Source: Pigoraptor vietnamica
Taxonomy: Eukaryota > Opisthokonta > Filasterea
Assembly: GCA_943704525.1 (NCBI GenBank)
Contig: CALSCQ010002073.1
Location: forward strand, 1 to 29,891
Direction: 5' to 3'
Length of the DNA: 29,891 bases
This document shows, in pieces, positions 1,867 through 9,548 of this stretch (within the stretch, counting starts at the first letter, position 1; the number at the start of each line of letters is the position of its first letter). A program made the position numbers and the translations under genes. Under the pieces are notes generated by a model. The model searched no databases. It was not told the DNA's origin and saw only the letters and a program-made list of their open reading frames with translations.

Positions 1867-4800
1867 TTAGCAATCCACGGTCACACAACCGCTCGGGGCC
1901 GCATCAGCGAGCGCGAGTTGTTCAGCCACCGTGACGCCGACTGATATTGCCTCAAACGGCAAGGGCCCTTCGACATTGTCATACAGTTGCGGCGTTTCCT
2001 CCGGTACGACGTTATCGTATAGAGCAGCGCCCGCCGACTGTCCCTTGACTGCTGTGGACGTTGAGGATGTGTCGCGCAGAGAGCGGAGAGTGGCCGCCAT
2101 CGCCGCAAATGCCGGGCGATCGGAGGGATTTTCCGCGCAGCAACACATGATGAGTGCGTACACTGGCGCGCTGCATGCGGGCGGGCGGTCCAAGCGCCCC
2201 CCGCGGTTGAGAAATGCCGGCATTTCCCTATTGCTTACGGTCGGGTAGGGCGTTTCGCCGAAGCTATAAATTTCGAAGAGGACGACGCCGAAGGACCACA
2301 CGTCCGTTGCCGTGTTGAACACGTGACGTGCAATGCTCTCCGGCGCCATCCTGCAGAATAGAGACGAGCGGCAGATTAGACGGGCGCCGACCACGCAAGA
2401 ACGAAACTGTCAAACTCGCAAAATAGCCTTCCACTCATTGTAACACGGGGACCCACCACTTGTAGGGTAGTTTCGCGCCTGCGACAGTGGAAATCAGGCG
2501 GGGAAAAGATGAGTAGAGAGCCAAAGAGAATAACCAAGTCAACGAAGGCGACGATGAACTGTCATCCAGACTGATGCATGGCGCAATACTTCACTCAACG
2601 GCGAGCACATAACACGCACACGCACCCGTTCTCTTGAGGCGGTATTCGCCGTCGGAGAGGTTGCGAGCGAGGCCGAAATCCGCGACCTGTTGCCCACACA
2701 GCATTGTTTTAGAATTAGGCTTTACCAGTTAAATTGGCATTTCGACACTTCTCAACCCTAACCTAAAACCCAGGCCTACTTATCCCGTCGCGCAACATAC
2801 AAATTAAATTCCAATCTACGGACATCTAAAACCGGCGAGGGCGACATAAACGTACCTTGCAGACGTAATCGCCGAATATGTCAACGCTCACAAGCACGTT
2901 ACGAGCCGCAAGGTCCCTGTGATTGGCAAAATTGGTTAAGCTCCGCGTCACTCACTGACATCATTCTGATGGCCGACAAATACTGCAATTAATTATGCCG
3001 TCCACGCACTCACCGATGGACAATGTTGTTTGAGGCAAGATATGCCATTCCGTCGGCGATCTCTGCGGCCAGTTCCGTTTGTAAGCGCGCGCGACACACA
3101 CACACACACACACACGCACACACGACGCACCCACACTCAACAACATCGGCTACACCACCAAACTCACCCGCTGCCATGCCTGTCAACACACGCGCGACGG
3201 TCGGCGCCTCCCGCTGGGCGGGAGAGAATCGCTCCAGGAACGACTTCAAGCTCCCCTGAGACATGTGCTCTGCGTATGTAAGGCACGTCAGAGTGGCACC
3301 AGCACCGACGTAAGAGCGGATCGCATCCTTCGCATTTATCCCATCGTTATGAGGATGAACTCAACACCCACCCAGCAGGACGATCATCGGCTCATCCTGA
3401 ACGACGCAATGGGTCGGAATGAGCAAGGAAAAAATAAAGAAAAAAAGGTCAGGACTATGCATCCGAGAGAATACGCAACAGAGCCACCAGTAAAAGCGGC
3501 GTGTAATGTGCCCCAGTCTTCGCGCTGCCCACGCACCTGGTAAATGACGCCGACTAGACCAATCACGTGACGGTGAGACAGGGGCCGCATCAGCTCCGCT
3601 TCCGCCACGAAAGCGGCCCGCTGCGTTGTTGACGAGAATTCGCGAAGCAGCTTTGCCGCACACACGCGCAAGCGGTTGTCCATAAAGACCTGCGCGCGCA
3701 TGACGACGCCTGCAGTGTGGCCACGCGCGGCTGTCAGTAGTGCACTCTCGCACACAGCGTTTCCGTTTAAGCGAATGGCGCAAAATAGGCCTCTCATGAT
3801 GCGCCGTCACTCACCAAACTCGCCCTCGCCAAGCCTGTCCAGAAGAGTGACGGCGTCGCGGGGCACTTGCACGCTCGCGAGGGCCGAATCGACGCCAATG
3901 TGGCTCTGCAGAAATGCAGCGTGTGCCTTCTGGCTGCGCTCGGCGCGGACGCGGCGGACCCACACTGCGACCACGGCAAGCACGGCGAGGCAAACAATGG
4001 GCACCACAACGCCGACGGCAATTGCGGCCACGTTGTTGCTCGACCCACTGCCACTTCCCTGCACGCATGCGTACGATCCGGCGGAGACGAGCACGAGCTG
4101 GCACTTTGCGCCGACGTCCAGTGCCGACTGGAAATTGGCGACCTCCCCCTCGATGGGGGCAGCGCCAAAGGGTGACCCGCGGCGAGTCACACCCGCGCTG
4201 TCGCTCGTCGCTGATGCGCAGCTGGTAGGCTCGCTCAGATACCCCGAGACGACCATGCGACAGCCCCTTGCCGAGATCTCGCTCCAGCTGGCAGACGAGA
4301 AGCGCACGCCGATGCCCTCAAACACGGCCGACCCTTCACCGTCCGCATTCGCAGTGAGACGCCCCGTCAGCGTGCATGCGCTCCCGGGCGGAGTTCCAAG
4401 CGTCACCGAGAGCAGAGTGCCCGGCATCAGTCCCGAGCGCAGACCGAACGAATCGACCGCGACAACGGCGAATGCGCCAAAGAAACCGCCCGCAAGTGCG
4501 ACGGAAACGTCTGGCAGCGAGCCCTCGAGCCTGAAGCGCACAGGGGAGGACGACAGCGTGGCCGACGACCCGTAAACGGCCCGCGCGCCCGTGACGGCGA
4601 CGCCAGAGATGAGCGCAGACGCATTGGATTCCCTCACGGCAGTGTGCACGACGGGACCGACGGTTGCGGTCGGCGATAAAATCTCGACGCCGGAAAACAG
4701 CGGCGGATGCAAGGGGTTCGCAAGCACGTACGCAACGCCTCCTCGGCCGCCGCCGGCCCCGCTTCCAGCCGCACACGAGACCATGCGGCCGCCTGACACT

Positions 4801-7800: not shown

Positions 7801-9548
7801 ACGATGCCATCCACGCGCACAAGCCCGCCAGAGCCACCCGCAGCCGACGACGTCACATTGACGTCCGTCAGCGACACAAGACCCGCCGAGCCAGTGACGA
7901 GAAAAGACCCTCCGTTCCACGCGGCGCTCACGTTTGCGATCGTGCACCCTTCCATCGTCACGTTGCCGCCGACGACCTTCGCCGCCCGGCGGAGCCCAAA
8001 AGCCCCGGCATCGTCGCAGTCGCTGTTGGCGAGGCCCACAAGCCCGCCGTATGCTACTAGAAACCCGCCGCTCACGTCGGACGAGACGTCGGAGAAGCGC
8101 GAGTTGACGAGGCGGAGCCGCCCGCAGTGCGACCGGAACGCGCCGCCGCCGGGCACGAGGTTGATAGCCGTGAACGTGCTCAACGCCGTCGAGTCGCGCC
8201 CGGTGCAATTCGTCAGCGTTACTTGCGAGAAAGTCTGCACGAGCCCAATACCACCGGCAGCCGACCTCGTGGCGAGGAAAGTGCAGCGGACGGCGTCAAC
8301 GACCGTCCCATCCCCACTTGCGTGCAGTGCGCCCCCGGAGGCTGCCGAGGCGCCGCTCACGACAACGTCCGCGAGGGACACGCGAGCGCCCAAGTCCGCG
8401 CGAATGGCGCCGCCCGAAATGCCTGCAGTGGTGTTGCGCAACATCGATCCGGCGATCGAGAGGCGGCCATCATTACGCACAGATGCAAAGCCACCCGTGC
8501 CGTTCACTGCGGCCGACCCGCTCGACGTCGCATTCGACACGGACACGGCCGCGCTCTCCCCGTCCACGCAGAGCGCGCCGCCTTCGGGCGCCGACGTCCT
8601 CGTAAACACTGACGACGACACGTTCACAATCCCACCCGCGACAAACACCGCGCCGCCGCACCCTCTCGCTTCAACGGCACGTGCAGGACGGCTGTTTTGA
8701 TTCACGCTGCGCACGCCCCACATCGAGGAACCGGCGTCGCCACCGAACGAGAGCGGATTACACTGCGGGCCCTGACTCGGAAGCGGAGGGTCCCCCTCGT
8801 CGTCGCCGTCGTCCGCAACAGGCGACTGGAACAGGGCGGCCGTGTCGGTGAAGTTGCACGCGATGGACGCAGACGCACGGCCAGACACGTGTACGGCCCC
8901 TCCTTCGAACGCGCGGCTGGCAAGAAAGAAGCAACTCCGCGCTGTGAGCGATGCGTCGTCGGACACTGCGACCGATCCGCCGCCGTGCGCGAGGCCGCCC
9001 TGGAAGGTGCTCGCCTGCACCGCGCACGTGGACGCGCCCCCCAATAAAATGTCCGCGCCGTACATGTCGCCCGCGGAGTCGACGGCGCTGTTCCCGACAA
9101 ACGAGCAGCCCGTGACCGCGAGGCGCGACTGGCCGCGCGCAGCCACAGCACCCGCGCCGTTTTGCGAGAAGACGCACGACGACAGCGTCAACGAGGCATC
9201 TTGCACGGCAAGCGCGCGAGAAGCACCGCACCCGCGAAACTCAATCGATGTCACATTCACTCGGAGAAGGGACCCCGTGAGCGCAAGGGCCCCTCCGTAG
9301 GGCGGGCACTTGATCAGAGGCCGCGCTCCACCCGCGCGCGGACGCACAGTGACTGTCACAGCACGCGACGTCGCCACATCCACGGTCGACGCAAGCGATG
9401 CATCCACCAACTCTGCCACAATGTCGGTGCTTCCCGCCTTCACCGCGTCCGCAACCTCCTTCAGGGACGAGACGACGGTCGGCGAGGCTGCATGCACGCA
9501 CGTGGAACACAGCAGCAGCATAAGTACGAGAGGGATGGCGCGTGCCAT
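1867..9548 (-). CDS. Receptor tyrosine kinase with a giant GG-rich (Pmp-like) repeat ectodomain
   Basis: Nine exons: 3815-9548, 3537-3709, 3372-3396, 3168-3269, 3014-3062, 2856-2916, 2626-2686, 2457-2478, 1867-2350. They sum to 2,236 residues. The start is the ATG at 9548; the frame is open upstream but offers only GTG. It gives a clean signal peptide (MARAIPLVLMLLLCSTCVHA). About 1,750 residues follow with more than 30 units centred on GGA/GGx, about 40-50 residues apart, resembling chlamydial polymorphic-outer-membrane repeats and predicting a right-handed beta-helix. The transmembrane helix is about 1840-1863. The kinase domain has GEGEFG at 1907-1912, AAK lysine 1931, alpha-C glutamate about 1948, HRDLAARN from 2027, DFG at 2051, one activation-loop tyrosine (2063), then KWMAPES and DVWSFGV. 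All catalytic residues are present, so it should be active. The tail carries YDNV twice (tyrosines 2187 and 2199), matching Grb2-type SH2 sites (pYxN). The ligand is unknown; cell-surface signalling is inferred. Confidence 0.93.
3094..3123. repeat. CA microsatellite inside an RTK intron
   Basis: Short (CA)n run on the plus strand, read as (TG)n in the RTK transcript. It lies between the exons at 3168-3269 and 3014-3062. Confidence 0.9.

Follow-up and report, generated by a model that had tools for sequence, protein, structure and literature searches.

Can a single gene join a repeat-built rod of the kind known from bacterial adhesins to a receptor tyrosine kinase (RTK), and if so, what would such a receptor do? 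The question is raised by a 29,891-nucleotide stretch of the genome of the filasterean Pigoraptor vietnamica, which is called the window here (contig C848 of a 32.5-Mb assembly of 1,395 contigs). On its minus strand a gene runs from 9548 to 1867 in nine exons separated by eight GT-AG introns, and encodes a product of 2,236 residues. The open frame has its first ATG at 9548, exon 1 spans 9548-3815 and the stop codon is 1869-1867. An earlier note on this DNA had proposed a complete RTK in one frame-consistent gene, and its coordinates, the long exon included, are confirmed. A hydropathy scan, made with no dedicated predictor, orders the parts as signal peptide, ectodomain, one transmembrane helix and cytoplasmic kinase, and the repeats, the transmembrane stretch and the glycine loop lie in one open frame.

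The fused gene and its family

Support for one continuous protein comes from a paralog in the same genome, C327 (L056:1131-5264), in which a signal-like start, GG repeats, a transmembrane stretch and a complete kinase (PF07714, E 3.1e-74) share a single intron-free frame of 1,378 residues. The spliced product of the window gene aligns with this paralog at 45% over 339 alignment positions (residues 1825-2157), with gaps of only one or two residues. Because the alignment spans all eight splice junctions, these are right or nearly so; the C-terminal tail lies outside the aligned part.

The ectodomain has many counterparts in its own genome. A search with it gave 68 matches, 18 of which, that of the window included, stop at residue 1911, where exon 1 ends, and PF07714 matched 177 times, each exon being counted separately. 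We tabulated 28 loci, the window among them, which were picked from the ectodomain and kinase search matches and not at random. The layout is present in 20: at 13 loci at least five GG pairs and the glycine loop share one frame (12 found by pattern and L015 by eye), and at seven more (L012, L014, L018, L025, L044, L045 and L050) the repeats and the kinase matches are colinear on one strand. The transmembrane helix of L027 is only putative, as its strongest hydrophobic stretch is found past the glycine loop. In the other eight (L017, L020, L031, L047 and L052-L055) one part is absent or weak in the stretch examined. L017 and L055 have many GG pairs and no kinase match in those stretches, and are perhaps secreted or kinase-less relatives, or have kinase exons that lie out of reach. 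Gene counts are not final, as the pairs L012/L020 (92.5%) and L014/L015 (88%) may each represent a recent duplication or two haplotypes that have diverged.

We therefore conclude, from sequence, that the fusion of ectodomain and kinase is real, because it is seen in one open frame here, in the intron-free paralog, at other loci of this genome and in proteins of the Opistho-2 culture described below. This evidence also answers the second refuting condition of the earlier note, under which the ectodomain and kinase exons would turn out to be parts of different transcripts. The 68 ectodomain matches and the 20 loci with this layout rule out a single odd gene.

The predicted ectodomain fold and the kinase

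The ectodomain is of the GG-repeat type and about 1,815 residues long, somewhat more than the 1,750 or so first estimated. It contains 47 GG-x sites, 23 of which have a partner 25-29 residues further on; in 1,000 composition-preserving shuffles such pairs averaged 1.3 and never exceeded 7, so the repeat spacing is far beyond chance. The autocorrelation of GG has its maximum at lag 27 (lags 3-119 scanned). The earlier count of more than 30 GG units holds, with the correction that the middle of the ectodomain has none (Table 1). GGA occurs 21 times (shuffle mean 5.3, maximum 14), while FxxN is not enriched (2 occurrences against a shuffle mean of 1.6).

Whether these repeats fold as a beta-helix was one of two points on which the earlier note had, beforehand, made its proposal depend. 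The Pfam model Beta_helix matches the ectodomain (E 1.9e-18; 67 bits against a curated cut-off of 25.9), and AlphaFold2 predicts right-handed beta-helices in both halves. In structural alignments of the two halves, Vag8, pertactin and phage tail proteins ranked highest, Vag8 coming first in both lists and pertactin third or fourth (among the 50 matches listed per half). Over the aligned parts Vag8 and pertactin, both from Bordetella, are 11-14% identical to the ectodomain; unlike the window protein they are bacterial and have no kinase. A sequence search of the PDB with the ectodomain gave a single weak match, to a formylmethanofuran dehydrogenase (E 0.05), which was not used.

The ectodomain had also been called Pmp-like, after the chlamydial adhesins. 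Pmps are bacterial autotransporters with FxxN repeats and a beta-helix fold, and the window protein has the GGA repeats in common with them. It differs in that it carries a kinase and has no match to Chlam_PMP, nor any domain besides Beta_helix in its exon-1 product (Pfam, E up to 1), no FxxN excess, and no C-terminal autotransporter barrel, since above the cut-off Pfam gives only Beta_helix in the exon-1 product and kinase families in the rest. The name thus suits the predicted fold and the GGA half of the motif, and fails for the FxxN half and the Chlam_PMP model; to say that the protein is a Pmp would be too strong.

A 16-row alignment has, in the membrane-proximal region, D-x-aromatic-G, a G column and then two Cys columns kept in most rows. 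The transmembrane helix and the juxtamembrane segment are likewise common to this alignment, with the window row and P0033 departing from parts of the membrane-proximal pattern. Just past the helix, from residue 1864, stands a basic VRRVR. All the signature motifs of a tyrosine kinase (GxGxFG, AxK, HRDLAARN, DFG and W-M-A-P-E) follow, as GEGEFG at 1907, CAAK at 1928, HRDLAARN at 2027, DFGLAR at 2051 and KWMAPE at 2075, and to judge from them the kinase is apparently intact. HRDLAARN and KWMAPE are present in several tyrosine kinases of this genome, and EGFR, IGF1R, FGFR4, ALK and LCK match the kinase among the 60 of 2,549 PDB matches listed. On the hydropathy scan, PF07714 and these positions, the signal peptide, the single transmembrane helix and the full set of catalytic motifs reported earlier all stand. 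The tail has two YDNV motifs, which, by the SH2 rules of animals, may be pYxN (phosphotyrosine) docking sites.

Relatives and kinase phylogeny

The same union is found outside this genome. Three EukProt proteins, Opistho-2@4070, @93837 and @40529, join a tyrosine kinase to Beta_helix (two proteins) or Chlam_PMP repeats (one, @40529, E 6.1e-14); with P0113 they make four such proteins among the 120 listed of 2,116 matches. They resemble the window protein in having repeats and tyrosine kinase in one chain, in kinase clade, and in stalk and transmembrane region, and differ in being shorter (1,280-1,428 residues), with a kinase region 41-44% identical to that of the window. Another locus of P. 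vietnamica, C898, aligns with Opistho-2@4070 in twelve colinear pieces (residues 23-1203, 25-72% identity) before its contig ends within the kinase, and at least one such receptor is probably common to two species. Opistho-2 is, with Colp-12 and Opistho-1, one of the three culture clones of the Syssomonas and Pigoraptor paper, according to its accessible text (PMC7147346). Because no piece exceeded 72% identity, in comparisons of two Opistho-2 proteins with the whole genome and of all three with five loci, the culture is a relative that belongs to a different species, provided that the assembly does not lack those genes.

We built a tree of 44 kinases that includes two plant rows, which we take to be TKL kinases; a branch supported at 99/94 splits the window kinase and 41 other rows from them, and the window kinase groups with tyrosine kinases, not with TKL. 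Thirteen rows labelled beta-helix and four others form one 17-row clade (97/94), within which the window kinase branches first with weak support (80/71). The sampled animal kinases lie outside this clade, and the window kinase is not nested in InsR, MET, Eph or JAK. When seven rows were removed (the outgroup, JAK and long rows), the same 17 still fell on one side of a branch (92/96, in 88% of bootstrap trees). The comparison with other RTKs that the earlier note had called for thus puts the window kinase among mostly beta-helix rows.

P0113, whose name format resembles, as far as we can judge, that of choanoflagellate transcriptomes, has Beta_helix and a tyrosine kinase like the window protein, in 2,185 residues, and additional LRR and NosD matches. 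Its kinase falls outside the 17-row clade, but a tree with P0113 constrained inside is not rejected (approximately unbiased test, p 0.26), and an independent origin of this beta-helix RTK is not established. P0146 (EukProt TRINITY_DN357; 2,380 residues) is a possible further beta-helix kinase, with precomputed Beta_helix, REJ (as we take PF02010 to be) and kinase domains; the two kinase domains are TKL-like by eye. One further protein search found Beta_helix with a kinase in P0026 and P0146 (among the 120 rows listed). In P. vietnamica itself, L001-L007 and L051 make up a second set of tyrosine kinases. Their motifs are intact, their kinase domains mostly run without interruption, and they sit on a branch of their own (95/100), separate from the beta-helix receptors.

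Animal RTKs (IGF1R/insulin receptor, MET, Eph and EGFR) have the kinase domain, the single-pass layout and the tail tyrosines in common with the window gene model, but none of the animal rows listed has Beta_helix as a precomputed Pfam domain. This agrees with the earlier remark that no animal RTK class is known to have such a layout. RTKB2 and RTKC8 of Monosiga brevicollis, which are protist RTKs too, have a long ectodomain and tyrosines in the tail, as does the window protein; Cys-rich and hyalin-like modules make up their ectodomains, to which RTKB2 adds EGF modules, and the available descriptions mention no beta-helix (PMC3584944, PMC10263333). The window ectodomain has none of these Cys-rich, HYR or EGF modules and, by Pfam, Beta_helix alone. 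Both Monosiga kinases are reported there to be active and to phosphorylate peptides of their own tails (PMC3584944, PMC10263333), and the ligands of Monosiga RTKs are given as unknown in the accessible part of PMC3584944.

The kinase and the beta-helix fold are each well known, and it is their union as a receptor family that would be the new element. No receptor family of this kind was found in the literature searched, which left out the main filasterean, ichthyosporean and choanoflagellate kinome papers, and none is described in the available text of PMC8662651, PMC12716839, PMC6792448, PMC3584944, PMC9492541, PMC2346548, PMC7147346, PMC8061703 or PMC10263333. Opistho-2 sequences with the same fusion are already public in EukProt, where they have no descriptive name. 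The suggestion of an undescribed system holds as far as that literature goes, and novelty is not proved.

Possible function and the rest of the window

We think it rather probable that the gene encodes a single-pass RTK with a rod-like beta-helix ectodomain that serves as a contact receptor and signals by tyrosine phosphorylation, with a ligand and an activity that we infer. The signal peptide would route the receptor to the cell surface, where a two-lobed right-handed beta-helix rod is predicted to project from the membrane; as a beta-helix rises about 4.8 angstrom per rung, it could measure some tens of nanometres. The rod would bind a ligand repeated over the surface of a particle or cell that it touches, whether prey, bacterium, glycan or another cell. 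Clustering would then let the kinases trans-phosphorylate at Tyr 2063 of the activation loop and phosphorylate the tail tyrosines, the two YDNV motifs included, and SH2 adaptors would be recruited. The recurrence of the layout across the genome would fit recognition of many targets. Syssomonas is described as attaching to its prey, joint feeding is described for both Syssomonas and Pigoraptor, and aggregation for all three species; these would be occasions for a contact receptor and prove nothing.

Several results count against this picture. Mean pLDDT (predicted local distance difference test) is only 55 for one AlphaFold2 model and 62 for the other, with poor modelling of the middle of the ectodomain and of its membrane-proximal part. 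In a Foldseek search of the PDB with the second half alone, no structure matched at E 0.001 or below; the best had 8.5e-3. Among five paralog frames searched with Pfam, only L043 matched Beta_helix; C327, L010, L016 and L050 did not, so the case for a beta-helix in these four depends on their GG spacing and on resemblance to the window protein. Finally, four of the 17 clade rows show no beta-helix: P0033, which has LRR and FN3 in its ectodomain, and L052-L054 in the stretches examined. The kinases of these three loci are close to that of the Chlam_PMP-bearing protein. Because of these four members, and the LRR and FN3 of P0033, the clade has apparently seen at least one exchange or loss of the ectodomain.

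The common fold by itself shows no function, which tells against a sensor for prey or bacterial glycans in which a face of the helix would bind polysaccharide in the manner of tailspikes and alginate-active enzymes. We hold this to be possible but unlikely, even with many polysaccharide-binding or -cleaving helices among the structural matches listed and with the uptake of prey and bacteria by Syssomonas and Pigoraptor described in the accessible part of PMC7147346. Slightly more doubtful is a homophilic or kin-recognition receptor, in which the rods of two cells would zip together and report contact during aggregation or joint feeding, both described, in the available text, for Pigoraptor and Syssomonas. 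The Foldseek matches (none reaching E 0.001) include antigen 43 and a bacterial protein described as 'self-associating', the family is expanded in its own genome, and self-associating autotransporters offer an analogy; the fold is, however, equally common to lyases, epimerases and tail proteins. That the helix is a mere spacer in a receptor for a soluble ligand we regard as improbable: the ligands of animal RTKs with similar kinases are mostly soluble, but rods of more than 1,000 residues are typical of adhesins, and the exon-1 product offers no second domain by Pfam at E up to 1. An artefact, in which wrong exon joining or misassembly merged a beta-helix surface gene with a separate kinase gene across the eight introns that the kinase part requires, is so nearly refuted that we rule it out, given the glycine loop in the repeat frame here and at 12 other loci (one by eye), the intron-free C327, the 45% alignment across the junctions and the Opistho-2 fusion proteins.

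A contact receptor in which an adhesin-type rod is joined to a metazoan-like kinase is a concrete hypothesis of contact sensing, testable in culturable relatives of animals. Protist RTKs are known for odd ectodomains, and the signals they sense are largely unknown; the receptor is relevant to the question of whether recognition of prey, bacteria or kin was the first use of tyrosine phosphorylation, ahead of its cell-cell use in animals. It also mirrors a chlamydial case, as described in the accessible part of PMC3635982: Pmp21 binds and activates EGFR from outside, the adhesin being the ligand of the receptor, whereas in the window a similar predicted rod is part of the receptor itself. It is tempting, though we would not expect it to hold, to go further and suppose that filasterean-like protists have a large, diversifying repertoire of beta-helix receptor kinases for recognition of kin, prey or bacteria, with varied adhesin-like rods on a shared stalk-transmembrane-kinase unit, as a pre-animal counterpart of immune or allorecognition receptor families.

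Table 1. Features of the receptor gene, with positions in the window.
Feature	Position	Strand	Basis
Start codon and signal peptide, residues 1-20, MARAIPLVLMLLLCSTCVHA	9489..9548	-	First ATG of frame; hydrophobic from residue 4; no signal-peptide program
Predicted N-terminal beta-helix lobe, residues ~22-820, with short helix (residues 29-37) at start	7089..9485	-	
Middle segment without GG repeats, residues ~826-1040, fold uncertain	6429..7073	-	GG sites absent ~750-1050; pLDDT <50 at 826-953
Predicted C-terminal beta-helix lobe, residues ~1190-1680, confidence highest at 1250-1529	4509..5981	-	
Membrane-proximal module, residues ~1687-1835, ending in Cys-containing stalk	4044..4490	-	16-row alignment; no confident model
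Transmembrane helix, residues ~1838-1862	3963..4037	-	Hydropathy maximum 3.05; hydrophobic stretch aligned in other rows
Tyrosine kinase domain, residues 1901-2163, over nine exons	2089..3848	-	PF07714 E 4.7e-80; motifs
YDNV motif 1, Tyr 2187, putative pYxN docking site	2008..2019	-	Sequence
YDNV motif 2, Tyr 2199, putative pYxN docking site	1972..1983	-	Sequence
C-terminal tail with stop codon	1867..2088	-	Gene model

The rest of the window holds other genes. On the minus strand, a large open-ended gene (26145-29891) runs off the contig end with 12 EGF and four laminin-G stretches (Pfam); its near-identical EGF blocks are linked by poly-proline, and it is teneurin-, neurexin- or crumbs-like. 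Two adjoining C2H2 zinc-finger genes (20556-22217 and 23080-24447, minus strand), with three stretches each by Pfam, are perhaps a tandem duplication. At 15527-16309 (minus strand) long charged repeats of the EERAKKEA type probably form a coiled coil or a single alpha helix, and a Pfam match to Fibrinogen_BP there looks compositional. The plus strand encodes a mitochondrial carrier protein at 18989-19750 (Mito_carr, E 1.1e-41).

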